Below, piece after piece: positions 4,491-18,816 of a stretch of 64,000 nucleotides of DNA. This DNA comes from Lentibacter algarum (GTDB lineage: Bacteria > Pseudomonadota > Alphaproteobacteria > Rhodobacterales > Rhodobacteraceae): contig NZ_JAHKQI010000005.1 in NCBI RefSeq assembly GCF_018860975.1, positions 682,001-746,000 of the forward strand, in the 5' to 3' direction. The notes beneath the pieces were generated by a model. It ran no database searches. It had not been told where the DNA came from and saw only the letters and a program-made list of their open reading frames with translations. The position numbers and the translations under genes are program-made. Each line of letters starts with the position of its first letter. Within the stretch, counting starts at the first letter, position 1.

Positions 4491-5825
4491 ATGAAGAAGT
4501 TTCTGATGGCTGCCGCGGGCGGCACTTTGGCGGGGCTGGTGATCACCACGCAAGTCGCGGCGCCGCTTTTGGCGCAAGAATCAGCCAAAACTACAGACGT
4601 TTACCAGCAGCTTGATCTGTTCGGCGACATCTTTGAGCGGATCCGCGCGCAATATGTCGAGGAAGTTGACGAGGGCGATCTTATCGAAGCCGCGATCAAC
4701 GGGATGCTCACTTCGCTTGACCCGCACTCAAGCTACCTGAGCCCTGATGACGCCGCTGATATGCGCGTGCAGACGCGCGGTGAGTTCGGCGGTCTTGGCA
4801 TCGAAGTGACGCAGGAAGACGGCTTTGTGAAAGTTGTCAGCCCGATCGACGGCACACCCGCTGATGTGGCCGGTGTCGAGGCTGGTGATTTCATCACTCA
4901 TGTTGACGGCGAGAGCCTGCTTGGCCTTCAGCTTGATGAAGCCGTCGAAATGATGCGCGGGCCCGTTGGCAGCGAGATCGTGATCACCGTTGCCCGTGAA
5001 GGCGCTGACGAGCCGCTGGAAATTTCGATCATCCGCGACACCATCAAACTGACGGCGGTGCGCTCGCGCATCGAAGGCAAGACAGTTGTTCTGCGCCTGA
5101 CCACGTTCAACGACCAGACCTACCCCAACCTTGAAGCCGGCATTGCCAAGCAAGTTGAGGAAGCGGGCGGCATGGACAAGGTTAACGGCTTTATCCTTGA
5201 TCTGCGCAACAACCCCGGTGGCTTGCTGACACAGGCGATCAAAGTATCGGATGCCTTCCTTGAGAGTGGCGAGATCGTGTCGACACGCGGCCGCAAGCCT
5301 GAAGACGGCGACCGCTTTAACGCGGTTGCGGGTGACTTGACCGGTGGCAAGCCACTGGTTGTGTTGATCAACGGTGGCTCGGCCTCGGCGTCAGAGATCG
5401 TTGCCGGAGCGCTGCAAGATCATCGCCGCGCGATTGTGGTTGGCACCAAGAGCTTCGGGAAAGGCTCGGTTCAAACTGTGATGCCACTGCGGGGCGAAGG
5501 GGCGATGCGCCTGACGACGGCTCGCTACTACACACCATCGGGCCGCTCTATTCAGGCGCTTGGCGTTTCACCTGATATCGTTGTCGAGCAACCACGCCGC
5601 ACCGAAGAAGAGGCCGAGGAGGCGGACGTCAAGTTCAAGGCACGCACCGAGGCTGACCTGCGCGGCAGCATCAGCAATGACAGTCTGACTGAAGACGAGA
5701 TCGAGCAAATCAAGCGCGATCAGGAAAAAGCGCTTGCCGCTGCCAAGCTGCGGGTTGACGACTATCAGCTCGCCTATGCCATCGACATTTTGAAAGGTCT
5801 GTCGGCGCTCGGCCCGTCTGAGTAA
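4491..5825 (+). CDS. ctpA: Carboxyl-terminal processing protease (S41 family, CtpA)
   Basis: 444 residues: signal peptide or membrane anchor (residues 1-29), S41 N-terminal helices (YLSPDDAADM), a PDZ domain at about 95-170 (GGLGIEVTQ, VDGESLLGLQLDEAVEMMRG), then the protease core. The Ser-Lys dyad is visible: Ser299 in GGSASASEIVAGAL and Lys324 in GTKSFGKGSVQ, with the usual 25-residue spacing. It should cut periplasmic proteins near the C-terminus, and related enzymes control peptidoglycan hydrolases. That fits its place right after the EnvC-like gene. It is the last gene before the terminator at 5849. Confidence 0.95.
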   Translation: MKKFLMAAAGGTLAGLVITTQVAAPLLAQESAKTTDVYQQLDLFGDIFERIRAQYVEEVDEGDLIEAAINGMLTSLDPHSSYLSPDDAADMRVQTRGEFGGLGIEVTQEDGFVKVVSPIDGTPADVAGVEAGDFITHVDGESLLGLQLDEAVEMMRGPVGSEIVITVAREGADEPLEISIIRDTIKLTAVRSRIEGKTVVLRLTTFNDQTYPNLEAGIAKQVEEAGGMDKVNGFILDLRNNPGGLLTQAIKVSDAFLESGEIVSTRGRKPEDGDRFNAVAGDLTGGKPLVVLINGGSASASEIVAGALQDHRRAIVVGTKSFGKGSVQTVMPLRGEGAMRLTTARYYTPSGRSIQALGVSPDIVVEQPRRTEEEAEEADVKFKARTEADLRGSISNDSLTEDEIEQIKRDQEKALAAAKLRVDDYQLAYAIDILKGLSALGPSE

Positions 5826-5848
5826 GCTATAGGCAAAGACATCGAGAG

Positions 5849-5878
5849 GGCCGTGCTTGCGAGAGCGCGGCCTTTTTT
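5849..5878 (+). terminator. Rho-independent terminator after ctpA
   Basis: A 9-bp stem (GGCCGTGCT / AGCGCGGCC, one G-T pair) closes a 6-base loop and is followed by six T residues. It lies 24 bases after the ctpA stop and just before the convergent end of the acyl-AMP ligase gene. Confidence 0.88.
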
Positions 5879-5885
5879 CTATGCG

Positions 5886-7307
5886 CTAGAGCAGTTTGAG
5901 CAATGCCGCGCGGTCAACCTTTGACGCGTGGCGTCTGTCCATCGGGATGTGGCTGACGGATTTGACAGAAGTGATGCCGAGCTTGGCGGCATTGTTTGTC
6001 CACGTCGCGCGTTGCGCTGTGTCTCCGGCGACGGCAAGCGTTGCGGTGCTGTTGACGGCGACCAAAGCGCATTGCGCAACCCCTTGCCACTGCCGTGCAG
6101 CAACTTCGATAGAAAACGGGAAGGCAGGGCCTATGGCTGTGTCGACCTCCGAGCCGACCCGCCCCAGCAGCCAAAGGCGGTTATGGGCATCAAAATATCC
6201 TGCATCGCCGGTGCGGTGCCAGATAGTTTTGCCTTCGACGATCTTGTTTTCGGCGTCATGGGCGGGGTCAAGATAGCCGCTGTTTACATGCGCGCCTGCG
6301 ACTTGAATTTCGCCCTGCTGCACACGCGCATTGACGACATCAACAGGCGTGCCGACGAGCAGGCCTTTGCCGGAGGTCATCAGCGCGTGGTCATCAGCCG
6401 TGATGTCATGAGCAGGCAGATGGGCGATCGGCTCGGCCTCGGTTGAGCCATAAACACAGACCGCTTTCAGGCTTGGCTTGGCGGTGTTGAGGGCTGCGAG
6501 CATGTCGGGAAACACCGGCCCGCCACCCGTGAAGACGGTGTGCAGCGTGGCAGGAATCTGCGTTTGAGCGAGCTTTTCACAGAGCGAGGGGGGCAGTAAG
6601 GCACGGGTGACATTCTGGCTGGTGATCCAGTGTTCAAGCTGCGTGGGGGCGAGTTTGCCAAGCCGTGACATCTTCCAGTTGGGCAGCACAGAGGTTTGGC
6701 CGCTGGCGATGTTGATCAAGACGAACACGGGAAACGTGACCAGATCGCGCTCGGGCTTGTCACTGTGCAAAAGCGGCGCGATGGCGCGGTGCTGCGCGCT
6801 GAGAAACGCGTGACTCCGCGGGATTGCCTTGGGCATGCCTGTGGTGCCGGAGGTAAAAGAAATGAGAGCGATGTCTGTCTCGGAGGGCGGCGGCAAGCCA
6901 GGTGCAGCACCGCTGCTCTTGTGTGGGCGCAGGTGTTTCATTGGCCAAAGCTCGGGCAGGGCAAACTTGAGCAAGCCGTAGGCGCCCGCACTGCAAAACG
7001 CCGCGGGCTTGGTGACGCGGGCAGCGTGACGCAGGCCTTTGAGCCCCATCGCGGGTTCGGGCAGAACGACTGTCGCGCCGAGCGACCAGAGCGCCGCGAG
7101 GCTTGCGTAGAGATCAGTTCCGATGCCCATCGCCAAGAGCACGCGATCACCCTTACGGATGCCTTTGCGATGCCATGTGCGTGCGAGGCCTTCAGCCCGG
7201 TTTTGCAGCTCGGTGAAGGTGGTGCTTATGCCCGCTCCATCAACGATTGCCACGCGCTCGGGGTGCCGCGCAACGGCAGCGTTAAAGTCGTTGAGGATGC
7301 TACCCAT
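5886..7307 (-). CDS. OleC-like AMP-dependent acyl synthetase/ligase
   Basis: 473 residues of the ANL adenylating superfamily, shorter than most acyl-CoA synthetases. Core motifs: SFTSGTTGMPKAIPRSH (150-166, phosphate loop), YGSTEAEPIA (286-294), WHRTGDAGYF (363-372), LLGRVGSEV and a final RRHASKVDR holding the catalytic Lys463. The AIPRSH and STEAEP variants and the short C-terminus resemble OleC (beta-lactone synthetase) and fatty acyl-AMP ligases more than typical CoA ligases. It should adenylate a carboxylate; the acceptor is unknown. It is the last gene of the seven-gene operon and overlaps the GNAT-like gene by 8 bases. Whether it loads CoA, forms a beta-lactone or feeds the GNAT-like enzyme cannot be read from sequence. 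Confidence 0.87.
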   Translation of the reverse strand: MGSILNDFNAAVARHPERVAIVDGAGISTTFTELQNRAEGLARTWHRKGIRKGDRVLLAMGIGTDLYASLAALWSLGATVVLPEPAMGLKGLRHAARVTKPAAFCSAGAYGLLKFALPELWPMKHLRPHKSSGAAPGLPPPSETDIALISFTSGTTGMPKAIPRSHAFLSAQHRAIAPLLHSDKPERDLVTFPVFVLINIASGQTSVLPNWKMSRLGKLAPTQLEHWITSQNVTRALLPPSLCEKLAQTQIPATLHTVFTGGGPVFPDMLAALNTAKPSLKAVCVYGSTEAEPIAHLPAHDITADDHALMTSGKGLLVGTPVDVVNARVQQGEIQVAGAHVNSGYLDPAHDAENKIVEGKTIWHRTGDAGYFDAHNRLWLLGRVGSEVDTAIGPAFPFSIEVAARQWQGVAQCALVAVNSTATLAVAGDTAQRATWTNNAAKLGITSVKSVSHIPMDRRHASKVDRAALLKLL

Positions 7308-8145
7308 CGAGCTTTAGCCCGAACAGCCCGTAGCGGCGGAAGACATCAGCCCCCTCGGCGGCGCTGCGCTCGGCGGACTGGTTGTCATCGTGGATGAGTG
7401 CGTGAATGGCGGTGTCATAACCTGCAGCGGCGGCGGCTTTGTGAAAGGCATAAGCGAGGTGCTGCCCTGCGCCGCGCTCAAGGCTGGCGTAGGTTTTCAA
7501 TATCGCGCTGCTTGGCTGCGGGCCTTCGGCAAAGTTCGGCGTTCCAAAGAGGAAGCCCGCGAGGCTTTGATCGGGCCGCCGCGCAAAAAAGATCAATTCG
7601 CGTTTGAGCATTGGCACCATTGGCATATACATCGCGAGGAAGGCCTCGCGGCTGATAGGTTTGTAAAACATGTTCTGCGAGAAAGCCTCGCTTGAAAGGT
7701 CATACACCTGATTGAACAGCGCTTCGGGGTTGGTGCCATCCCACGGTTCGATGGTGAAAGTGTCGGTTGACGCGGGCTTGGTGAGCGCGGTTTGCGTCAG
7801 CGGCACGCGGGCCGAGAAATACTGGCTGATTTCGGTGAAGCCTGCGACTTTGAACAGCTCCAGCGGCATAGGGGTTTCGCGCGGCTCAAGCAGGAAGGCA
7901 GGGCTGCCATCGCTTTCGGTGACAAAGCGGTAGCTGTGCCATGTGTCGCCGTCCATCGGGCCGATGACGCGAGAGAGGCCTTGCGCGCGGGCGAAGGTGA
8001 TCGCTTGCTGCAAGACGTCAGCTCCGGCCGTTTCGGCTTTGCAGGTGAAAGCGCCGATTGTCGCTGTCGGCGCACCGTCCCATTCGGGGCCGTCAAGAAA
8101 CACGGTGAGCTTTGCGCCCTCGGCTTGAAACACATGTTGCGTCAT
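7300..8145 (-). CDS. GNAT-like N-acyltransferase
   Basis: 281 residues from the ATG at 8145, which overlaps the stop of the preceding gene as ATGA; the frame stays open upstream but inside that gene. Supporting blocks are the N-terminal GPMDGDTWHSYRFV, then ELFKVAGFTEISQYFSARV, YDLSSEAFSQNMFYKPISRE, DQSLAGFLFGTPNF and SAILKTYASLERGAGQHLAYAF, which reads like a GNAT acyl-CoA pyrophosphate loop, with HALIHDDNQSAE near the end. Proteins of this kind move an acyl group to an amine or hydroxyl. Placement directly before an adenylating enzyme suggests the two act in sequence on one acyl unit. Substrate unknown. Confidence 0.75.
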   Translation of the reverse strand: MTQHVFQAEGAKLTVFLDGPEWDGAPTATIGAFTCKAETAGADVLQQAITFARAQGLSRVIGPMDGDTWHSYRFVTESDGSPAFLLEPRETPMPLELFKVAGFTEISQYFSARVPLTQTALTKPASTDTFTIEPWDGTNPEALFNQVYDLSSEAFSQNMFYKPISREAFLAMYMPMVPMLKRELIFFARRPDQSLAGFLFGTPNFAEGPQPSSAILKTYASLERGAGQHLAYAFHKAAAAAGYDTAIHALIHDDNQSAERSAAEGADVFRRYGLFGLKLDG

Positions 8146-9461
8146 AGTGTGAACCTCGAAAAATCTATCACCATCAGGTAAGCAGGAAGCGGTATGAGCA
8201 GCGACATGAGCGCAAGCTTTGTCACACGGGCCTTGGCAAAGGCCTGCGCAAAGAGTGAGGGCACGACCGCTGCCAAGACAAGGCAGGCGATGACCAGCCC
8301 CCACATCGGCCCGTTCCAGTTTGTCGTTTCAGGATTGAGGCCAATCACCACGAAGCGGATACCGCAGAGAGCCGCAGTGATTGCCAGCAACGACGCGAGC
8401 CGCGCAAACAACGCGCTTTTTGAGAGTGCTACGGCGCAAAGGCCCGTGACCAAAGACATCGCGGTGAGGCCATAAAAGGATATCGCGTTCCAGCCCGAGG
8501 CATTGCCCAGCGTCAGCCAGCCGAGGCTGAGAAAAGCCAGCCCTGCGACGATGTCGAGATCTGGGTATTTGCCAGAGCAAGGCGTGACACTGCGGCTCCA
8601 GGCGTGCGCACCGAGCGCAAGAATAGGCATCACGGCATTTTGCATCTCGGTCACTGCGAGCAGGACGAAAACAGTGATCACATAGACCCGCGCGGCGTGT
8701 CTGCTGAGGCCAAGCATGGGCGCAATTTTGAGAAAGGCGAGTATGCTAACGGTGAAAAGTGCTGCCGTTAAAAGCAGCTCGAGCAGCGGGTTTTGGGCGT
8801 GAAAGAACAGGAAGATCAGCAGGCCAACGGGCAGGAACAAGTTGTCAAACCCGCGCCAGCTGACTGCCTCAACCAAAGTGCCAAACCCCGCGACCATAAG
8901 CGAAAGCACGATGATGTTTGCTGGTGGCAGGGGTGTCATCAGCATGAGGCAGAAGACAGCTATCAGCAAGGTGAGGGTGAAAAAGACGGCGCTGCCTTCG
9001 ATGCTTTTCTGGCCTTCCTCGACCTTGAAAAACTTGGTTCCGTAATTGCTTCCGGCCAGCGCTGCAGCGGCATCGGCAAGCGTGAGAACGGCGATCGGGA
9101 GCACGTAAAGGAAGAGCTGCTCTTGCGCCAGAAACAGGCAAACGGCAACGGAGATTGCGAGCAGGAAATCACCATATGATTGCCGCTCGACGCTGTGCAG
9201 GGTCTTGCCGAGTTTGGAGCCGGGGAGGCGCAAAACGAGCATAACCAGAAGTGTGAGACCAACCAGAAAGTAGACAGGCCAACGCGTTGGAAACAGCCAA
9301 GGCAGGGTGAGCGCGTAGAGGCCTGTGCCAATGTGAACAAGCTTGCGCTGCACCTCAGAGCCGATATCGCTGCGCGCCGCCAGCCAGCGCACCACCGCCA
9401 TGAGGCAGAGCAGCGTGGCGACAGAGGCAAGCGCAAGGATGATCTGCAAGGTGACGCTCAT
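8142..9461 (-). CDS. Phytol/dolichol-kinase-like polytopic membrane protein with an extra C-terminal membrane domain
   Basis: 439 residues with many membrane spans. The first ~200 residues carry marks of the CTP-dependent polyprenol kinase family (phytol kinase VTE5, dolichol kinase SEC59, yeast DGK1): RKLVHIGTGL (39-48), YGDFLLAIS, LADAAAALAGSNYGTKFF (128-145), and K-S-x-EGS (152-157). The second half adds about seven hydrophobic segments not found in ordinary phytol kinases. The known reaction is CTP plus lipid alcohol to lipid phosphate; here the alcohol is unknown. It overlaps neighbours by 1 and 4 bases. Together with UbiA and the PEP-synthase-like enzyme it suggests stepwise activation of an isoprenoid alcohol, which is inference. 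Confidence 0.78.
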   Translation of the reverse strand: MSVTLQIILALASVATLLCLMAVVRWLAARSDIGSEVQRKLVHIGTGLYALTLPWLFPTRWPVYFLVGLTLLVMLVLRLPGSKLGKTLHSVERQSYGDFLLAISVAVCLFLAQEQLFLYVLPIAVLTLADAAAALAGSNYGTKFFKVEEGQKSIEGSAVFFTLTLLIAVFCLMLMTPLPPANIIVLSLMVAGFGTLVEAVSWRGFDNLFLPVGLLIFLFFHAQNPLLELLLTAALFTVSILAFLKIAPMLGLSRHAARVYVITVFVLLAVTEMQNAVMPILALGAHAWSRSVTPCSGKYPDLDIVAGLAFLSLGWLTLGNASGWNAISFYGLTAMSLVTGLCAVALSKSALFARLASLLAITAALCGIRFVVIGLNPETTNWNGPMWGLVIACLVLAAVVPSLFAQAFAKARVTKLALMSLLIPLPAYLMVIDFSRFTL

Positions 9462-10558
9462 CAGGTGACTTCCTCAACCACAAAATCGGAGTAAAAGAAT
9501 GCTTTGTCTTGGGCCTTGAGTGTGTCCTCTAGCGCTGTCAGCGTGGTGACTTGCTGCGCAAAAGCGGGGGGCACACGGCGCGGCACCATCATGTTCCAAT
9601 AGACCAGCCGCGCGCCAGGTGCGGAAGCGGCAAGCACACTGCCATAGACCTGCTCGAAAACCTCGGCGGACATATATTCAAAAATGTCAGAGAGGTTGAA
9701 ACCGTCGGCCTTTTCTCCGGTGGAGACGAAGGCCTCAAGCGAACCGGGCCTGATATCAAGCCTATCAAGCCGCGCTTTGATTGTTTCGTAGTGCTCCTCA
9801 CGCCATGTCATCGGCAGGGCGTCACCGTGCGTGCCTTTGAGGATCCAGTGCAAGTAGGGGTTCTCGGCTGGGTCGCACTCCACGGCGGCATGGTGAATGC
9901 GCCTTGCGACGTGCTCGGCAGGGCTGCCTTCTACGTGATCAAAGAAGGCTTTGTCGCGGCCCATACGGCCCATCACGAAGCGCGAGAAAAACGCATTTAG
10001 CAGCAGCCGCCAGCGCCATGTGTTAAAGCGCGTATCGAGGAACTTCTGACGCTCGGGCTTGGGCCGCGACACGAAGGTATCGTCGATGGTTTTGCGGCTG
10101 TGCACGAAAGGCAGAAGCCGCGTGCGGAAGATGCGAAAGTAGCGCTCGAACTTGCCCGCACCGCCTGCGCCGTGTTGCTCGACTTCGTCGGCCAAGCCTT
10201 GCCAGTAGGCGGTTGTTTCGGCGTCGGTGCCTTTCAATGCCTTGGAGAGAAGCGCCTTACGGTTGTCGCTTGGTCGTGCGCCCATGAGCTGCAAAAACTC
10301 GGGGTGTGTGAGGTTTGTGAAAGCGCCGATACGCAGCTTGAGGCAGGCGATCTGGGCGAGGGACAGGTCAACCACCACGACCTTCGCCGGGTCGAGCGTC
10401 AGCATAGCCAGCGCGTTGTCGCCCGCCGAGCAGATCGACACCAGCGTGCCGCCTTTGCAGTCGCCCAAGCCTTTGGTCAGCACGTCGGCATCTTCCCAGA
10501 GTTGTGCATAGCGGATGTGCTCGAAGTCGGCTTTGCTTTCAATCTCAGAGGTCTGCAT
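9461..10558 (-). CDS. DUF3419 / BtaA-like S-adenosylmethionine 3-amino-3-carboxypropyl transferase
   Basis: 365 residues. The N-terminus (FEHIRYAQLWEDADVL), the SAM site (LVSICSAGDNALAMLTLDP, then VVVVDLSLAQIACLKLR, 39-76) and the C-terminal FNLSDIFEYMSAEVFEQVY and RLVYWNMMVPRR match DUF3419, whose founder BtaA moves the aminocarboxypropyl group of SAM onto diacylglycerol in betaine-lipid synthesis. BtaA partners with the N-methyltransferase BtaB, but no btaB-like gene is adjacent. The acceptor may therefore be another hydroxyl and the amine may stay unmethylated. It overlaps the upstream enzyme gene by 14 bases and the downstream one by 1. Confidence is high for the family, low for the substrate. 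Confidence 0.85.
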   Translation of the reverse strand: MQTSEIESKADFEHIRYAQLWEDADVLTKGLGDCKGGTLVSICSAGDNALAMLTLDPAKVVVVDLSLAQIACLKLRIGAFTNLTHPEFLQLMGARPSDNRKALLSKALKGTDAETTAYWQGLADEVEQHGAGGAGKFERYFRIFRTRLLPFVHSRKTIDDTFVSRPKPERQKFLDTRFNTWRWRLLLNAFFSRFVMGRMGRDKAFFDHVEGSPAEHVARRIHHAAVECDPAENPYLHWILKGTHGDALPMTWREEHYETIKARLDRLDIRPGSLEAFVSTGEKADGFNLSDIFEYMSAEVFEQVYGSVLAASAPGARLVYWNMMVPRRVPPAFAQQVTTLTALEDTLKAQDKAFFYSDFVVEEVT

Positions 10559-12968
10559 CTATGCGCTCCACTTGGCCTGTTGCACCGTCAACGCTGATCA
10601 ACTCACCGTTCTCTATCCATTGTGTTGCGCCTTTGAGGCCCACGACACAGGGGATGCCCAGCTCACGCGCAACGATGGCGGAATGTGACAAAAGCGAGCC
10701 GCGCTCGACCACGATTGCCGAGGCGTTGCAAAACACCGCGATCCAGCCCGGGTCTGTGTGACGCGCAACGAGGATGTCGCCGGGCTCAAGCGCCTCTGTG
10801 CGCGGGTCACGGATCACACGGGCGCGGGCTGTGACTTGACCTGCCGAGCAGCCTGTGGCGCTGCGGGCCGTTGCGCTGTCTTTCTCTACGGGTGTTTCGT
10901 TCCAGACAGGAGCGATTGCGGGGCCGCGCAGCTCGATCCGCTCGGGCGGATCAGGGCGCTGGGCGGCGGCTTGGCTTGCCGCTTTGCGCAGGGCCACCAG
11001 CGCTTTGAGATCAGCCGAAAGGCCTGCGCCTTCGACCGCGCCGAGCACCTCTTGCGTGGTGAGGTGAAACACGTCACGCGGGGCTTTGAGCAGCCCACGC
11101 GCCGCGAACTCGCGCCCGAGCGCAAGGAAAACACGGCGCGTGTAGCCGAAGATGCGGGTGCGCTCAAAACGCAGGTTCTCGCGGTCACGCACGCGGTTCT
11201 TTGTCCAGCTGATCACCCACTTTGCAACGCGGCGCTTGAGCGGTGCTTTGGGAAAGAGCGCGGCCCAGTTGGGCTCTTGCGTGTCATGTTTCTCGACGCT
11301 GTCACGCGTGGCACTGAAGGCGATAGCTTGCAGCAGGCTTGTCGGGTCTTCTGTGAGCGGGATACTCTCAAGTTTGAGCTCTTCTGTGCAGCGGTCACCG
11401 AATTTGTCGAGGTAGGATCGCACCTCCGCAGCGATAGCTGGGTGTGCGTCAAGTGCGCCTAATCCGTGCTGGCCAAGGGCCTCGGCCAGGCCTGCCTCAC
11501 GCACCATCGCCCCCATCGTGGCGATGCGCTGAGCTGGCTCGGCAGAGATGATATCTCCCTGACCGATCATCACGTCGTTGTGCAGAGTGAGCCCGTCAGC
11601 GCCAAGCCATTTTTCAAGCATATTGCGCGAAGCACCGAAGGCGATCATGCACAGAAAGTCGTTGATCAGCGGCGCATCCCAGCGGTCAAGCAGGGTGCTT
11701 TCAATGCGGCGATACTCGGCGGCGAGGGCGGTTGGGCCGGCTGTGCTGACTTCAAACCCGCTGTTGAGCGCCGCATCAAGCCGCGCGTTAAAGCGCGCGC
11801 GGGTGCGGGGCAGACGGAAGGCTTGCCAGAGCAGATTGCCAGCGACTTTGATGAGTTTGAGGTATTCAAGCAGCTTCTTGAGGCCCTTTGCGGGGGGCGG
11901 GCCGATACTGTCTGTGACCTCGGCAGGCATGGGCGTATCGACGCCCATCATGGTTTCCATATAGGCGCGGTTGAGCGAGAAACCGGGCAGCAAAGCCAGC
12001 GCGCGATACCAGTTGACGAGGTTGTAATAGACCCGCCCGTCAACCACGCCGAGCATGTTGGAAAACACCGCGGCGTTTTCTTCAACGGTCTTTTCAGGCA
12101 CGCCGAGCAGCCGCACGAAGGCCTGATAAACGCGGGTGTAGACATGCACCGCAAACGAGTAGGTCAGCGGGCTGACCATGCCGGGGTAACTCTCGACGAT
12201 GTTGGAATTGTCAAAGATCGTCAGGTGCGCGTCAGGCTGCGGCAGGGGCAAAAGCGGCGTGGTGATCGGACGCGATTGCAGGATGTGCAGCCCGTCAGCG
12301 TCAAGCGCCCATTCAATGTCTTGCGGCAGGCCGAAGGCTTCTTCGGACTTGCGTGCCAGAGCGGCGACTTGCAGCGCTTCGTCAGATGTAAGCACTTCGG
12401 GTTTGGCGGGGCCAGAGGCGGTTTTGCCAACGCTCCAGTCTTCGCCGTCTTCCTCGCCTGAGACCAAACGCTCGCCCAAGCCCGCGATGGCCGAGATAGT
12501 CACCTGTCCGCGCAGGCCTGTGACGGGGTCAGCGGAAAAGGCAACGCCGGCGGCGTGTGCGTCGATCATCTGTTGGACGATGACGGCGGGGCCCTCAGCG
12601 GCGGCCCCGGTTTTCAGAGCGCGGTAGGTTGCAACCGTTTCCGAAAAGCCGGACTGCCAGACTTGCTTGGCGGCTTTGCCTACATCGGCGGCTTGCACGT
12701 TCAAGTGGGTGTCAAACTGGCCTGCATGGCTGTGCTCGGCGCCGTCTTCCTGACGGGCAGAACTGCGCACGGCGAAGGGGCCTTTACCCAAGTTCTTGAG
12801 CGCGGCTTTAAGGCCTTTGATCTGGCCGGATGTCTCGAATGCGTCAGCTTTGATCACAAAGAATGCAGGCGGGTTGAAACCGAAGCCAGCCAATTGTGCG
12901 AGGGCGGCGGCCTTGCCACCGACGACCTCGACCTCGCGCGCGTCTTCCTGTGTGACAATCAGCGACAT
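10545..12968 (-). CDS. PEP-synthase-like / rifampin-phosphotransferase-like ATP-dependent dikinase
   Basis: 807 residues in three parts. Residues 1-235 are an ATP-grasp PEP/pyruvate-binding domain (VVGGKAAALAQLAGFGFNPP, GPFAVRSSARQEDG, DIEWALDADGLHILQSRPIT). The helical middle (250-690) opens with DNSNIVESYPGMVSPLTYSF. The C-terminal swivelling phosphohistidine domain has His762 (GSLLSHSAIVARELGIPCVV). This order matches rifampin phosphotransferase and PigC-like enzymes; true PEP synthase ends in a barrel domain that is missing here. Such enzymes use ATP to phosphorylate or couple a substrate, releasing AMP and phosphate. It starts at TGATG overlapping the UbiA stop. In this operon it probably phosphorylates or ligates the pathway intermediate. 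Confidence 0.85.
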   Translation of the reverse strand: MSLIVTQEDAREVEVVGGKAAALAQLAGFGFNPPAFFVIKADAFETSGQIKGLKAALKNLGKGPFAVRSSARQEDGAEHSHAGQFDTHLNVQAADVGKAAKQVWQSGFSETVATYRALKTGAAAEGPAVIVQQMIDAHAAGVAFSADPVTGLRGQVTISAIAGLGERLVSGEEDGEDWSVGKTASGPAKPEVLTSDEALQVAALARKSEEAFGLPQDIEWALDADGLHILQSRPITTPLLPLPQPDAHLTIFDNSNIVESYPGMVSPLTYSFAVHVYTRVYQAFVRLLGVPEKTVEENAAVFSNMLGVVDGRVYYNLVNWYRALALLPGFSLNRAYMETMMGVDTPMPAEVTDSIGPPPAKGLKKLLEYLKLIKVAGNLLWQAFRLPRTRARFNARLDAALNSGFEVSTAGPTALAAEYRRIESTLLDRWDAPLINDFLCMIAFGASRNMLEKWLGADGLTLHNDVMIGQGDIISAEPAQRIATMGAMVREAGLAEALGQHGLGALDAHPAIAAEVRSYLDKFGDRCTEELKLESIPLTEDPTSLLQAIAFSATRDSVEKHDTQEPNWAALFPKAPLKRRVAKWVISWTKNRVRDRENLRFERTRIFGYTRRVFLALGREFAARGLLKAPRDVFHLTTQEVLGAVEGAGLSADLKALVALRKAASQAAAQRPDPPERIELRGPAIAPVWNETPVEKDSATARSATGCSAGQVTARARVIRDPRTEALEPGDILVARHTDPGWIAVFCNASAIVVERGSLLSHSAIVARELGIPCVVGLKGATQWIENGELISVDGATGQVERIDADL

Positions 12969-13873
12969 CAGAGCATCCTTAGAACAAGCGGTGCAAAACC
13001 GGCGATGGCGTAGCAGTCAAACACCCAGAGGCCAGCGAGGGTATCAAGCTGCTTTTGGGCTTCAGGTGTTGGGTTTTTGACGTATTTAGCGGCGGCTGAC
13101 AGGCAGAGTGCTGCGCCAAACCCGCCAAACATAAGACCAACCCAAAGCGCGCCAGTGGCTTGGCAGACCGCAAGCAAGAGCGCGAAGGAGAGCAGGACGC
13201 ATGCGCTCCAGACAAGGGCTGCTTTGCGCGGCCCCCAGAGGCGGGAGTATGTATCGACGCCAGTGATTTCGGCCTCGGGCGCCCAGAGCTTGCGGCCGAT
13301 TTCGAGCACACAACCGTTGACGAAGGACAGCGCCAGAAACAGCCAGAGCCCGTTGGCAGCGGAACCTGCGGGAAGCCACTCAAAGCCGGTGAGCAAAAGG
13401 TCGATCAGCGGCATGATCAGCATATGGCTGAGCAAGTAGAGCACGGGGCGCGCTTTGAGCCACTCAGGCGCGCCGAACTCGGCTGTCATGGCCGCTAGCC
13501 ACGCCCAGACCAGTGCCAGCAGCCAAAGCGCGGGCGGATGCCACGTCCAAGTTGCGAAAGCAGCGATGGGAAGGGAGGCAAGGCCAAGCGTGATAATCTG
13601 GCGGAGCGAGACGAGGCCGCGGGGGATAGGGCGCTCAGGGCGGTAACGGGTGTCATCCTCAAGGTCTTTATACTCGTCGCAGACCCGCATTTGAAAGAAC
13701 AGCATAAGCGCAACAATGAAGCCTGCGATGTAAGCCCCGTAGCTTGGCAAATCGCGGCCTGACAGCTCGGCCGAGACGGTGAGGCTCGCGGCGGAGAACA
13801 CGGCCAGAAGCGGCATGGTTTGCGCCAGCGGGAAGCGCTCTTTTTGATATGTCCAGAGGGCAGAGAAACTCAT
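12968..13873 (-). CDS. UbiA-family prenyltransferase
   Basis: 301 residues with about eight membrane spans. The first Asp-rich prenyl-diphosphate motif is D66-E-Y-K-D70-x3-D74, followed by RYRPERPIPRG (77-87), typical of UbiA. In place of the usual second DxxxD motif, the segment 191-214 reads EIGRKLWAPEAE, then ITGVDTYSRLWG. This marks a subfamily separate from UbiA/COX10/MenA sensu stricto. It should join a prenyl diphosphate to an acceptor in the membrane. Its ATG overlaps the HMG-CoA reductase stop as ATGA. Neither the prenyl chain nor the acceptor is known. The ubiquinone ubiA gene is expected elsewhere. Confidence 0.88.
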   Translation of the reverse strand: MSFSALWTYQKERFPLAQTMPLLAVFSAASLTVSAELSGRDLPSYGAYIAGFIVALMLFFQMRVCDEYKDLEDDTRYRPERPIPRGLVSLRQIITLGLASLPIAAFATWTWHPPALWLLALVWAWLAAMTAEFGAPEWLKARPVLYLLSHMLIMPLIDLLLTGFEWLPAGSAANGLWLFLALSFVNGCVLEIGRKLWAPEAEITGVDTYSRLWGPRKAALVWSACVLLSFALLLAVCQATGALWVGLMFGGFGAALCLSAAAKYVKNPTPEAQKQLDTLAGLWVFDCYAIAGFAPLVLRML

Positions 13874-15135
13874 CTGTGGCGGGCCAGATTTTCATGTGCG
13901 CGGGTGAAATGCCCGGCGGCGATAGCGGCGACGATGGAGATTTCTCCGCAGAGGCAGGTGGCGGCGGCAACTTCGGCCAATGCCGCACCTTTGCCCGCGC
14001 CTTTGAGCCCCAGAATGTTCAGCCCGGCTGACTGACTTGGCAGTGATGTGCCGCCGCCGACAGAGCCGACAAGAATGTTTGGCATGGTCACGCAACAGAA
14101 CAGTCCGTCGTCGCGGGCCTCCATGCGGGTGATGCCGATAGCGCCTTCGGCGACGCAGGCCGCGTCTTGGCCTGTGGCAATGTAAAGCGCTGCGAGGCCG
14201 TTGGCGAAATGCGCCTGTGCGCCGAGCTGACCGGACAAATGCGAGCCGAGATTGGCGACTTGTCCGTAATCCAGCATGGCTTGCACTGTGGTGCCGAGCG
14301 TCTTTTCGACCACCTCCGCCGACAGCGTGACTGAAGCGCTGACTTTGCGTCCGCGCCCTGTGACCAAACCGAGAAACGATGCTTTCTTGTCGCCCGAAAA
14401 GTTGCCCTCGATATACCATGCCTTCAAAGGCACGGGGCAGCGCGCGGCGATATCTTCGCACAGCGCGTTGGTCGCGATTGTCACCATGTTCTGGCCTGCC
14501 GCGTCGCCTGTTGTGTAGCGGCAAATGAGAAAGACGATGTTGTTGTCGATCACCGGCTCGACCGAAACAAGCTTGCCGTGATTGGTTGTGCCTTCGGCCT
14601 TGGCTTTGAGGCTGTCGATCTGGCTGACGACCCACTCAACGAAGAGGCCCGCATTGAGCAACTCGTCAAACACAAAGGCCGGTGTACGAATGACGCCTTC
14701 ATAGAGCAGGGCTGTGCTGATGCCGCCCGACTTTGTCGCGGCGTAGGCGCCGCGTGCATAGGAGGCAACCAAAGCTGCCTCGGTTGTGGCCATCGGCACG
14801 TGATAGTCGCCATGCGCGTTCAGCCCGTTGATGCGCAAGGGGCCGATGATACCGACCGGCATTTTGACGGTGCCGATAAAGTTCTCGATATTGGCGCTGA
14901 ACTGGTCTGGTTCGGTCATTGTCAGCGGGTCGGCTATGGCCTGCTGGTCATCCGGTGAGGCGACTTCTGACAGACGGCTCCAGTATTTGTTCACCGAGGC
15001 CGCGCTGGCTTTGCGCACCGGACGTAGAGTTGTGAAGTCGGCGTCATTTGGCAGCATGCGCTCTTTCAACGGCGCCGCCTGAAAGCGAGCGCGCACTTTG
15101 TGCAGCATTTCAATAACATGCGATGGGATGGTCAA
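13870..15135 (-). CDS. HMG-CoA reductase, class I-type, soluble
   Basis: 421 residues, starting at TTG behind AGGAG; no membrane domain. Residues matching the class I catalytic set are all present: Glu119 (VPMATTEAALVAS), Lys250/251 (EGNFSGDKKASF), Asp324 (TGQDAACVAEG) and His414 (AAGHFTRAH, which aligns with the human AAGHLVKSH block). Substrate loop ENFIGTVKMPVGIIGPL and cofactor block TTGDAAGQNM (NADPH type) are clear. It reduces HMG-CoA to mevalonate. No mevalonate kinase, decarboxylase or HMG-CoA synthase is nearby, and alphaproteobacteria of this kind usually make isoprenoids by the MEP route. It is the first gene of the operon and divergent from the sulfotransferase gene. Confidence 0.92.
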   Translation of the reverse strand: MTIPSHVIEMLHKVRARFQAAPLKERMLPNDADFTTLRPVRKASAASVNKYWSRLSEVASPDDQQAIADPLTMTEPDQFSANIENFIGTVKMPVGIIGPLRINGLNAHGDYHVPMATTEAALVASYARGAYAATKSGGISTALLYEGVIRTPAFVFDELLNAGLFVEWVVSQIDSLKAKAEGTTNHGKLVSVEPVIDNNIVFLICRYTTGDAAGQNMVTIATNALCEDIAARCPVPLKAWYIEGNFSGDKKASFLGLVTGRGRKVSASVTLSAEVVEKTLGTTVQAMLDYGQVANLGSHLSGQLGAQAHFANGLAALYIATGQDAACVAEGAIGITRMEARDDGLFCCVTMPNILVGSVGGGTSLPSQSAGLNILGLKGAGKGAALAEVAAATCLCGEISIVAAIAAGHFTRAHENLARHR

Positions 15136-15214
15136 GTGCCGCGCTCCTGCTTTACTTTCAAAGTATTTCTCTCACAATATGGCTACAGTATGCGCGATCG
15201 GGCAAGGAAACTAA
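15136..15214. promoter_or_regulatory. Divergent promoter region of the HMGR operon and the sulfotransferase-P450 genes
   Basis: This 79-base A+T-rich gap is the only non-coding stretch in the cluster, so both transcripts must start in or near it. It contains AGGAG for the TTG start of the reductase and AAGGA for the sulfotransferase ATG. TTCAAAG and CAATAT or TACAGTAT could be promoter elements, but I cannot assign them with confidence. I see no clear palindromic operator. Confidence 0.55.
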
Positions 15215-16333
15215 ATGAAAAACGGCCTTAAGCATCGCTGGAGCATAAGCCACAATTACCTGACGGGTATTACCTTTGGAAAGTGGTGCAAATTGCTGAT
15301 GCAGAACCGCTTTCGGGTTTCGCCTGCCTATTGGCACCGCGCTGCTGTTATCACGCTGGCGAGCCTGTCAAACTCGGTGTTTGCGGCGGTTGAGGCGCTG
15401 CGCTACGGGCGGGCTGTCGAGCAGGTAAAACTAACCCGCCCGCCGCTGTTTGTGCTCGGGCATTGGCGCAGCGGCACGACGTTGCTGCACGAGCTTCTGG
15501 CGCAGGACGAAGCGCAGTTCCAGTTTCCCAACACCTACCAAGTGGTGAACCCCTACACGTTTTTGACTACAGAAAATTTCACCACAAGGATGTTCCCCTG
15601 GCTGGTGCCCGAGACGCGGCCTATGGACAACATGGCGTTGAAGTTCAGCTCGCCGCAGGAGGACGAGTTTGCGCCGCTGTTGATGACGCTGACCTCGCTT
15701 TACCTTGGCACCAGCTTTCCGAACCGGATGCAACATTACGATCGTTACATGACATTTCGTGATGTCGAACCGCGTGAAGTCGGCAAGTGGAAAGCGGCCT
15801 TTGTGCGGTTTTGCAAGAAGCTCTCGCTGGATGATGCGCGGGCGCTGCTGATCAAGTCGCCGCCGCATACTGCGCGCATTCGCACCATACTTGAGATGTT
15901 TCCGGACGCGAGGTTTGTGCATATTCACCGCGATCCTTACCGCGTGTTTCAGTCGCAGCGGCACTTTTTTGACACTGCTGGCTGGTATACCTATCTGCAA
16001 AAGCCAGACATCAGCGCCATTGACGAGGGCATACTACAGCGCCACGAGACGATGTATGACGCCTTTTACGAAGACCTGCCTTCCGTGCCTGAAGGGCGGA
16101 TCGTTGAGATCAGATTTGACGCGCTGGAAGCCAACCCGGTTGAAGAGCTTGCCAAAGTTTACAGGCAGTTGTCGCTCGACGGCTTTGAGGCGTTCGAGCC
16201 AAAACTGCGCGCTTATGTCGACAGTCTTGCTGGCTACAAGAAGAACAGTTTTGATGGGCTGGATGCGGCCACAAAAGCGGTGGTTGCCGCGCGTTGGGCG
16301 CGTAGCTTTGAAAAAGGGAACTACCCTAAATGA
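15215..16333 (+). CDS. PAPS-dependent sulfotransferase family protein
   Basis: 372 residues. The 5-prime phosphosulfate loop is LGHWRSGTTLLHEL (81-94), and the 3-prime phosphate site is HIHRDPYRVFQSQ (237-248, Arg239 and Ser247). LLIKSPPHTARIRTILEMFP between them is typical of the sulfotransferase-3 group. It should transfer sulfate from PAPS to a hydroxyl of a small molecule or lipid. The ATG at 15215 follows AAGGAAA. Its end overlaps the cytochrome P450 start as ATGA, so a hydroxylation-then-sulfation pair is a natural reading. The head-to-head position with the reductase operon suggests shared control. Confidence 0.9.
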   Translation: MKNGLKHRWSISHNYLTGITFGKWCKLLMQNRFRVSPAYWHRAAVITLASLSNSVFAAVEALRYGRAVEQVKLTRPPLFVLGHWRSGTTLLHELLAQDEAQFQFPNTYQVVNPYTFLTTENFTTRMFPWLVPETRPMDNMALKFSSPQEDEFAPLLMTLTSLYLGTSFPNRMQHYDRYMTFRDVEPREVGKWKAAFVRFCKKLSLDDARALLIKSPPHTARIRTILEMFPDARFVHIHRDPYRVFQSQRHFFDTAGWYTYLQKPDISAIDEGILQRHETMYDAFYEDLPSVPEGRIVEIRFDALEANPVEELAKVYRQLSLDGFEAFEPKLRAYVDSLAGYKKNSFDGLDAATKAVVAARWARSFEKGNYPK

Positions 16334-17589
16334 AGCGCGCACCCGGGCCAAAGGGAGCGTTGATTTGGGGCTCACTTACCGAGTTTAGCGCAGATTCTCT
16401 GGGTTTTCTGGCCGAGGCCGCACATGAGCATGGCGATATTGTTCGGATGCGCTTTGGGCCGGTGACGGTGCATTTGCTCAATCACCCCGAGTATGTCGAG
16501 CATGTGCTGACACGCAATGCCAGCAATTACGACAAGAACACCCGCAGTGCCCACAGGATTGCCGCCACCACCGGCGACAGCCTGCTCTCGGCCAATCAGG
16601 TTGCGTGGAAACGGCACCGCAAATTGGTCCAACCCGGTTTTCAGCCGAGCAATTTTACCGGCATTGAACCGGCGCTTGACCGTCTCATTGAACCGATGCT
16701 GGAACGCTGGCAGCTGGCGGGTGAAGTCGATATCGTGGATGAAATGATGCAGCTGGTGATTGCTGCCGTGATCGAGGTTCTGTTCTCGTCAAGCATCGAC
16801 ACCGAAAAGCTGAACGCCGCGCTTGAAGTGGTTCTGGCTGATACATGGCGGCGCATCGAAGCCCCTCTTGACGCCTCGCTTCTGTCGCCACGGCTGCACA
16901 GGCCTGCCTTTAAGGCAGCGCTGAAGGAGATTGACGGGATCGTGCTTGAGCTCATCCTTGCGCGCCGCAGTAGCACACAACGCCCCGATGACGTGTTGAC
17001 GCGGTTGCTTGCCGCGCATGAGGGCGCGGGCGAGACCCACCTGAGCGACACCGAACTGCGGGATGCGACGGTGACGCTGTTGTTGTCAGGCCATGAGACC
17101 ACAGCGAACGCCTTGTCTTGGGCGTTTATCCGTGCATCTTCGGGCGGGCACGAAGCGGCTGATCCCGCAACAATTTTCGCCGAGGCGATACGGCTTTACC
17201 CTTCAATCTGGGTGATAGAACGGCGCGCTGTAGAGGCCGACACCATCGGTGGCTATCACATCCCGCGTGGCAGCTCGGTGCTGATTTCGCCCTATCTTAT
17301 GCACCGACACCCCAAGCTCTGGCACGATCCAGAGCGCTTTGATCCGGCGAGGTTCGCAGGCGATCACCCCCGCGCGCGCGATGGCTGCATTCCGTTCGGG
17401 CTTGGCGAGCATCGCTGTGTCGGCTTGTATCTGGCCAACACGATCGGGGCGCATGTGCTTAACCGTGTCTTTGCACGGTTTCGGCTGAAGCTGCTGCCTG
17501 ATCAGGGTTTGGGCCTTTCACCGGGCATCACTTTGCGGCATGAAGGGCCTGTAAGGATGCGGCTGCACAAAGAGGGTGATGATGTTTGA
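16330..17589 (+). CDS. Cytochrome P450
   Basis: 419 residues, soluble bacterial type. Landmarks: N-terminal proline-rich PGPKG, C-helix WKRHRKLVQPGF, I-helix LLLSGHETTANALSW (250-264), ExxR at Glu285-Arg288 (EAIRLYP), and the heme loop PFGLGEHRCVG with ligand Cys363. The general architecture resembles CYP4/CYP102-like chains that oxidise fatty acids or isoprenoids; the substrate is not readable. No ferredoxin or reductase partner is adjacent, so electrons must come from elsewhere. It is translationally coupled to the sulfotransferase upstream and overlaps the transporter gene downstream by 8 bases. Probably a tailoring enzyme of the same pathway. Confidence 0.93.
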   Translation: MKRAPGPKGALIWGSLTEFSADSLGFLAEAAHEHGDIVRMRFGPVTVHLLNHPEYVEHVLTRNASNYDKNTRSAHRIAATTGDSLLSANQVAWKRHRKLVQPGFQPSNFTGIEPALDRLIEPMLERWQLAGEVDIVDEMMQLVIAAVIEVLFSSSIDTEKLNAALEVVLADTWRRIEAPLDASLLSPRLHRPAFKAALKEIDGIVLELILARRSSTQRPDDVLTRLLAAHEGAGETHLSDTELRDATVTLLLSGHETTANALSWAFIRASSGGHEAADPATIFAEAIRLYPSIWVIERRAVEADTIGGYHIPRGSSVLISPYLMHRHPKLWHDPERFDPARFAGDHPRARDGCIPFGLGEHRCVGLYLANTIGAHVLNRVFARFRLKLLPDQGLGLSPGITLRHEGPVRMRLHKEGDDV

Positions 17590-18325
17590 AATCGTGGTTT
17601 TATGCCTCGCGGGGCTGGTGGCTGGCGGGCTGAACGCGGTTGCGGGCGGCGGCACTTTCGTTTCGTTTCCGGCGCTGGTCTGGCTCGGGGTTCCGCCGAT
17701 CATGGCCAATGCCACGGCGACTTTGACAGCTCTTCCCGGCTATTTCGGCAGTGCTTGGGCCTTTCGAGAGGACATCGCTGCCGAGGGCGTGATGAGCTTG
17801 CGGGAGATGTTTATCGTCGCCTGTTGCGGCGGCTTAACAGGCGCGCTTTTGCTGACTGTCACCAGCGAGGAGGCCTTTGTCGGGTTGGTGCCGTGGCTCC
17901 TGCTGATCGCGACTTTGGCCTTTGCCTTTGGCAACAAGCTTTTGTCTGTGCTGGCAATTGACGGCGGCTTGGGGCGCATTGGCAGCTACATGATCTTGAT
18001 CACCGTTTCGATCTATGGAGGTTATTTCAACGGCGGTTTGGGCCTCATGCTTTTGGCGGTGTTCGGCCTTATGGGCTTTCAAAACATTCACGGCATGAAC
18101 GGGCTGAAAAACCTGATCTCGGGGCTAATCTCGATTGTCTCTGTCGCGGCACTTGCGCTGGCTGGTTTGATCGCTTGGAAGAGCGCCCTTGTGCTGGCGG
18201 TTTCGACAACGGCGGGCGGCTACATCGGTGCGCGCTATTCCCGCAGGATCAAAAACATGGCCGCTCTGCGCGCCGGAATTGTTGCAGTTGGTCTGGTGAT
18301 GACCATACTGTTTTTCCTGAAATGA
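17582..18325 (+). CDS. TSUP/TauE-SafE family membrane transporter
   Basis: 247 residues from the third of three consecutive possible starts (GTG-ATG-ATG); AGAGGG is best spaced for the ATG at 17582. It has about eight membrane segments and the family motif [19 protein letters not shown] near the N-terminus, repeated more weakly as [10 protein letters not shown] in the second half. TSUP proteins move sulfite, sulfoacetate, other sulfonates or organic acids. It overlaps the P450 gene by 8 bases. The link with a sulfotransferase gene is suggestive, but its tight spacing to rppH means it may simply be a generic member of that operon. Confidence 0.85.
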
Positions 18326-18333
18326 GGCTCACT

Positions 18334-18816
18334 ATGACACCCGAAGACATTGCCAAACTGCCCTATCGCCCCTGTGTCGGGGTGATGCTTGCCAACGCCA
18401 AGGGCGAGGTGTTCGTCGGCCAGCGGTGCGACAGTGATGTCGCCGCTTGGCAGATGCCCCAAGGCGGGGTTGATGACGGAGAAGCGCCGCGCGACGCCGC
18501 CTTGCGCGAGCTTTGGGAAGAGACCGGCGTTGAGGCGCATCTGGTTGAGGTTGTGGCCGAAACGCAGGGCTGGCTACCCTATGATTTGCCACATGATCTT
18601 GTGCCGAAAATCTGGAAGGGGCGCTTTCGAGGGCAAGAGCAGAAGTGGTTTTTGCTGCGCTTTCAGGGCGCGGACGCTGACGTGAATATCGCAACAGAAC
18701 ACCCCGAATTCTCTGAGTGGCGCTGGCTTCCTGCGGGGGAGCTTGTTGACAATATCGTGCCGTTCAAACGTGCGGTCTATCAGGCGGTGATGGAGGAACT
18801 GGGGGATAAGATATGA
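18334..18816 (+). CDS. rppH: RNA pyrophosphohydrolase
   Basis: 160 residues. The Nudix box is complete: [20 protein letters not shown] followed by TGV, the G-x5-E-x7-REUxEExGU pattern. The start [21 protein letters not shown] and the WQMPQGG block are typical of alphaproteobacterial RppH, which removes pyrophosphate from 5-prime ends of mRNA and opens the way to RNase E. The ATG at 18334 gives the family length; an in-frame ATG at 18322 overlaps the transporter stop and would add four residues. It ends in an ATGA overlap with the next gene. Confidence 0.93.

Follow-up and report, generated by a model that had tools for sequence, protein, structure and literature searches.

The stretch of DNA analysed here (the window) comprises 64,000 nucleotides of Lentibacter algarum (Alphaproteobacteria, Rhodobacteraceae; contig NZ_JAHKQI010000005.1, positions 682,001 to 746,000), in which a sulfotransferase gene and a cytochrome P450 gene stand head-to-head with a seven-gene operon. 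The sulfotransferase (ST), a member of the Sulfotransfer_3 family, is encoded at 15215-16333 on the plus strand, starts with ATG and is 372 aa long. As the first-pass annotation of this DNA had claimed, an ATGA at 16330-16333 is common to the end of the ST gene and the start of the P450 gene, which follows on the same strand (16330-17589, 419 aa). A TSUP (TauE/SafE) permease gene comes next (17582-18325, plus strand), and the 8-base overlap of P450 and TSUP reported in that annotation is found when ATG 17582 is taken as the TSUP start; from the longest open reading frame (GTG 17576) the overlap would be 14 bases. ATG 17582 is also where the TSUP proteins of congeners begin to align (query residue 3). 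The TSUP stop at 18325 and the start of rppH (18335-18816, plus strand), its native right neighbour, have 9 bases between them.

On the other side of the ST gene, a divergent intergenic region of 79 bp (15136-15214) leads to the operon, which occupies the minus strand from 15135 down to 5886. Its first gene, starting at 15135, encodes a class I 3-hydroxy-3-methylglutaryl-coenzyme A (HMG-CoA) reductase-like protein (HMGR; 13870-15135). It is followed by genes for a UbiA-family prenyltransferase-like membrane protein (12968-13873), a phosphoenolpyruvate (PEP)-synthase/rifampin-phosphotransferase/RedH-like enzyme with PPDK_N and PEP-utilizers domains and a retained swivelling His (10545-12968), a DUF3419 (BtaA-like) protein (9461-10558), a polytopic membrane protein with a weak resemblance to the cytidylyltransferase CdsA (8142-9461), a tandem GNAT acyltransferase-like protein (7300-8304, the true start probably lying about 50 codons downstream) and an AMP-dependent acyl ligase of the ANL superfamily, nearest to PRK09274/OleC-like proteins (5886-7307). 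From a reading of the sequences, we take the left flank to be gpmI-envC-ctpA, with ctpA at 4491-5825 (plus strand), and the right flank to be rppH.

Linkage of the ST-P450 pair to the operon

Both proteins match their families well: the ST meets the Sulfotransfer_3 profile with 128.4 bits against a cut-off of 27 (E 6e-37), and the P450 matches the p450 profile with 196.3 bits (E 1.1e-57). The ST features the motifs RSGTT and HRDPYRVFQSQ, presumably the 5' phosphosulfate loop and the 3' phosphate motif, while the P450 features a candidate haem-ligand Cys in FGLGEHRCVG and an I-helix GHETT. Among 15 related copies, RSGTT is kept in every one, as are the R and S of HRDPYRVFQS and the haem-ligand Cys, and GHETT is kept in 14. 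ST and P450 are thus coupled genes whose active-site motifs are intact, and their activities are predicted.

The distribution of the pair was followed in a family sample of 394 genomes (one per genus), a class sample of 385 genomes and a scan of GTDB (one genome per species) with a DUF3419 alignment, which matched 582 stretches. A relative is encoded in 511 of these, and the 80 best were examined; 11 of the 80 sequences also belong to the family sample. Close ST orthologues occur in five of the 394 family genomes (G000, G191, G012, G032 and G278, at 100, 80, 79, 75 and 60% identity), the next best match being 38%. Operon-type HMGR (61-100%) occurs in 20 of the same genomes, and a further four HMGRs match at 36-39%. 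The 20 operon genomes include every one of the five with a close ST, and in all five the ST and P450 genes are head-to-head with HMGR; by our arithmetic, which ignores relatedness, the chance of five random genomes all falling within 20 of 394 is about 2e-7. In the alignment search for the P450, which covered 256 genomes, strong matches (above 760 bits) came from exactly the same five genomes, and the next reached 238 bits. No ST near the window's own score (783 bits) was found in the class sample, where the next match was 234 bits, and ST relatives in a plasmid collection were at 31-38% only.

Among the 80 GTDB operon loci, 15 contain the ST and P450, 14 of them head-to-head with HMGR. Culturable carriers of the pair include Thalassococcus halodurans (L079), Loktanella salsilacus (L088), Yoonia maritima (L086) and Thioclava indica (L084). 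In the one locus that is not head-to-head, from a Cypionkella metagenome-assembled genome (MAG; L112), the pair directly follows the AMP ligase and is read in the same direction, with the ST frame beginning 3 bases after the ligase to give a nine-gene run; here the ST ends at 15803 and the P450 starts at 15800. The pair is linked to the reductase operon in these other genomes too, and in two different arrangements. The 4-base ATGA overlap is present in 11 of the 14 related head-to-head loci; in L081 and L120 an ATGA stands at the ST stop with the P450 N-terminus extended, and L148 has TAATG. Since the overlap is kept in related loci, it is more than a product of chance. The HMGR-ST divergent region is likewise 74-84 bp long in 11 of the 14. 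One locus (L093) has a 60% ST fragment, and L148, from a Rhizobiaceae MAG, has a 65% ST. At L148:113-2704 the ST is closer to the other copies than HMGR is, and a separate transfer of the pair is possible there.

In about seven further GTDB loci, from other genera, one end or the other of the operon is flanked by a second, distantly related type of P450 (about 24% identical). It directly precedes HMGR in three (L102:3994-5370, L109:3955-5373, L113:3941-5371) and follows the AMP ligase in two (L115:14694-16070, L118:14778-16214); it is short in L123 and has no long open reading frame in L107. Its presence beside the operon in other loci suggests that oxidation of the operon product was recruited more than once. 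Apart from this second P450 type, nothing recurrent was seen at the ST site in other operons.

Taken together, these observations are best read as the ST and P450 forming an accessory module that tailors what the conserved seven-gene core operon makes, a reading to which we would give a probability of roughly two in three (0.68). Several points weigh against it. Upstream of HMGR, 71 of the 80 GTDB loci extend for 1.5 kb or more, and 56 of these 71 show no pair in the available DNA. Most operons are without ST-P450, so the operon is not dependent on the pair and the pair is dispensable to the core. Furthermore, ST and P450 distances correlate with those of the core at r 0.76-0.83, compared with 0.94-0.96 among the core genes themselves, as if the pair moves partly alone; this fits an accessory module and leaves room for a passenger. 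The order of hydroxylation followed by sulfation comes from chemical reasoning, the chemistry of the core is guesswork at the level of families, and the CdsA match of the membrane protein, seen in a structural model, is only suggestive and leaves its family weakly supported. In the family sample, 15 operon genomes are without a close ST. Eleven of these show the operon locus without the pair, and in three (G286, G109 and G174) the contig stops at HMGR or shortly past it, with the absence of the pair resting on the genome-wide ST search alone. In the last, G019 (L062:8155-9762), an ST remnant (residues 10-75) lies beside an HMGR split in two frames, which may reflect decay or an assembly error.

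The looser distance correlation, the relatively higher conservation of ST than of HMGR in L148 and the absence of the island from all six congeners (see below) would also suit a pair that is functionally separate from the core and merely a passenger on the same mobile island. We consider this quite unlikely: no close ST occurs away from the operon in the 394 family or 385 class genomes, the pair is found in two arrangements, one of them within the operon, the divergent region is short and of similar length across loci, and other lineages have recruited a different P450 beside the operon.

TSUP and a probable inserted island

The TSUP protein meets the TauE/SafE profile (99.8 bits against a cut-off of 32.6, E 2.5e-28), and TSUP proteins move sulfur oxyanions. 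The first-pass annotation had accordingly grouped ST, P450 and TSUP into a single unit for hydroxylation, sulfation and export, and the 8-base overlap of P450 and TSUP speaks for such a unit. This overlap, however, is seen in the window only, and a TSUP match is found in none of the 80 GTDB loci (threshold E 1e-4) and in none of 19 family operon loci (E 1e-5). In G012, a TSUP homologue and the ST are both present, on different contigs. Five of six congeners (G001, G002, G003, G005 and G006) encode a 71-76% identical TSUP between ctpA (87-95%) and rppH (51-53%), with no operon. In the remaining congener, G004, whose genome is 85% complete, TSUP was not matched at the threshold used. As evidence against its proposal the first-pass annotation had named TSUP-rppH being conserved without ST and P450, and ST-P450 being conserved without the reductase operon. 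The former is what is found, TSUP keeping its ctpA-rppH context without the operon, and the latter is not. The proposed co-conservation of the trio with the operon therefore stands for the pair and fails for TSUP. TSUP was rejected as a component of the system, its role as exporter of a sulfated product was not sustained, and we regard a three-gene export unit as very improbable. TSUP and rppH are judged to be bystanders belonging to the old chromosome.

Neither the ST nor the operon's DUF3419 was found in any of the six congeners, the same DUF3419 query finding the window copy. Given the ctpA-TSUP-rppH order in operon-free congeners, the lineage of the window seems to have gained nine genes by insertion between ctpA and TSUP, and the P450-TSUP overlap would thus be a by-product of the insertion point. 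Relative to the five congeners, the junctions of this island would lie at 5825-5886 and 17582, and TSUP has lost its own upstream region; its transcription may now start at the promoter of the ST gene.

The core operon and its HMGR-like reductase

All seven core genes are present in 73 of the 80 GTDB loci, in the same order and on the same strand in all 73; the other seven are without one to four core genes, which is taken to reflect contig ends. Carriers include Ruegeria, Roseovarius, Yoonia, Sulfitobacter, Paracoccus and Thioclava of the Rhodobacterales as well as the more distant Bosea, Devosia, Rhizobium, Chelativorans, Dongia and a Granulosicoccaceae MAG. The operon DUF3419 was found in two of the 385 class genomes, including the window's own, and the operon is therefore far commoner in the family than in the class sample. 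One operon was found in the plasmid collection, carried by a Roseinatronobacter sp. S2 plasmid (L172, NZ_CP121116.1, 121785-136713), and the annotation of this copy names two of the core proteins hypothetical. A description of the operon or the pair was not found in full-text searches of open-licence PMC papers, and the operon is widely conserved and apparently undescribed.

The HMGR-like protein fits the class I HMGR profile, its nearest solved relative being 6hr7 (E 1.7e-82), and retains the equivalents of Glu559, Arg590, Asp690, Lys691, Lys692, Asn755 and Asp767. Across 93 operon-type matches, the catalytic Lys691 and Asp767 are kept in all and Glu559 in 92, the position being not covered in one. 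By contrast, Ser684 and Lys735, the residues that bind the HMG carboxylate and that correspond to Glu243 and Ala294 in the window protein, are replaced by Glu and Ala in 93 of 93 operon-type matches (82 distinct sequences). Among four non-operon HMGRs, both Ser and Lys are kept in three and the fourth (L040) has Ser and Ser. These changes argue against HMG-CoA as the substrate. In 17 operon genomes searched, HMG-CoA synthase and mevalonate kinase above the cut-off were each found in none, with a single mevalonate-kinase-like match of 62 bits (cut-off 163) in G013, and Dxr of the 2-C-methyl-D-erythritol 4-phosphate pathway was found in all 17; a complete mevalonate pathway in these genomes was thus rejected. 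The absence of this pathway together with the residue changes suggests that the HMGR-like reductase has been repurposed to act outside the mevalonate pathway, its substrate probably being another acyl-CoA. Alternatively, the enzyme could be a genuine HMGR using HMG-CoA from leucine breakdown, with a mevalonate-unit product that is then hydroxylated or sulfated. Such a role would agree with the class I profile match and the retained residues, and mevalonate could be loaded by an AMP ligase and a GNAT protein, as happens when fungi make siderophores; in view of the substitutions we consider it unlikely. To annotate the operon HMGR genes as HMG-CoA reductases, or to read mevalonate chemistry from them, would therefore probably be wrong.

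The motifs checked in other core enzymes are intact as well. The swivelling His of the PEP-synthase-like enzyme is kept in 78 of 79 sequences covered and the AMP-ligase Lys in 75 of 75, and the acidic residues of the UbiA protein are kept. For DUF3419 and GNAT, searches by sequence against solved structures gave nothing usable; the GNAT-like protein nonetheless has the tandem GNAT fold (Foldseek 7q3a, E 2e-13; 2wpw, E 2.1e-12). The membrane protein had no profile match, and profile and solved-structure searches gave nothing usable for it. Its model resembles the CdsA/dolichol-kinase type weakly in Foldseek (4q2e, E 1.5) and aligns with CdsA in VIA-align (Z 8.5, rmsd 3.6, 126 aligned); in structure comparison, membrane pyrophosphatases come up as well, as does MraY, at Z 5-8.

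Predicted pathway and comparison with known systems

Judged from the enzyme families, the AMP ligase would activate a carboxylic acid, and the HMGR-like enzyme would form a primary alcohol by reducing an acyl-CoA other than HMG-CoA. Prenyl and phosphoryl transfer may fall to the UbiA, CdsA-like and PEP-synthase-like proteins, while DUF3419 may add a 3-amino-3-carboxypropyl group from S-adenosylmethionine and the tandem GNAT protein may acylate an amine to give an amphiphilic product. The P450 would then hydroxylate this product, and the ST would move sulfate from 3'-phosphoadenosine-5'-phosphosulfate (PAPS) onto that hydroxyl. For a pair that is intact and tied to the operon, the most economical account is that the operon product, probably an amphiphile, is hydroxylated and sulfated; to that extent the earlier suggestion of a sulfated product survives, and its export by TSUP does not. 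Tentatively, and with somewhat less than even confidence, this may be extended to a widespread alphaproteobacterial pathway in which a class I HMGR repurposed away from HMG-carboxylate recognition reduces another acyl-CoA on the way to a new class of amphiphile, finished by P450 and ST in some lineages and by another P450 alone in others.

With DUF3419 relatives at 511 places in GTDB, and all 80 of those examined lying beside further core genes, the operon represents a considerable gap in the known lipid or natural-product chemistry of bacteria. The presence of ST-P450 predicts a sulfate ester that could be sought by mass spectrometry, and the HMGR substitutions predict a change of substrate in one of the best-studied enzyme families.

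Several components resemble known enzymes without being equivalent to them. OleC was not adopted as the identity of the AMP ligase (138 and 136.5 bits against NCBIfam cut-offs of 850 and 900). Like RedH/PigC prodigiosin ligases and rifampin phosphotransferases, the PEP-synthase-like enzyme features an ATP-binding domain and the swivelling-His architecture, but its scores of 281 and 263 bits fall far below the cut-offs of 1350 and 999. RedH/PigC (281 against 1350 and 256 against 1300 bits) was not adopted as its identity, and no pyrrole genes were seen near the operon. The DUF3419 protein meets its profile (188.2 bits against a cut-off of 28.2) over its full length, as does the betaine-lipid synthase BtaA. 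However, G093 and G146 encode a second DUF3419 copy that scores 341-357 bits; the operon protein, at about 188 bits, belongs to a separate branch, and BtaA was not adopted as its exact identity. The best NCBIfam models for the P450 are the terpene-type albaflavenone monooxygenase and pentalenene oxygenase, with which it shares the haem motif, but its scores are 199 and 170 bits where the cut-offs are 700 and 800, and it is an equivalog of neither. The ST shares its profile and PAPS-binding-type motifs with solved Sulfotransfer_3 PAPS sulfotransferases, although the nearest match reaches an E of only 6e-13; the nearest chains are 2z6v and 2zq5, described in the PDB as putative uncharacterized proteins, and 4gox, a polyketide synthase. 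Unlike known PAPS sulfotransferases, its close relatives were found only beside the operon in the samples searched. Finally, the HMGR-like protein shares the family and the catalytic Glu, Lys and Asp of class I HMG-CoA reductases (6hr7, 1dq8), yet it is encoded in genomes without the mevalonate pathway and carries replacements at the residues that contact the substrate carboxylate.
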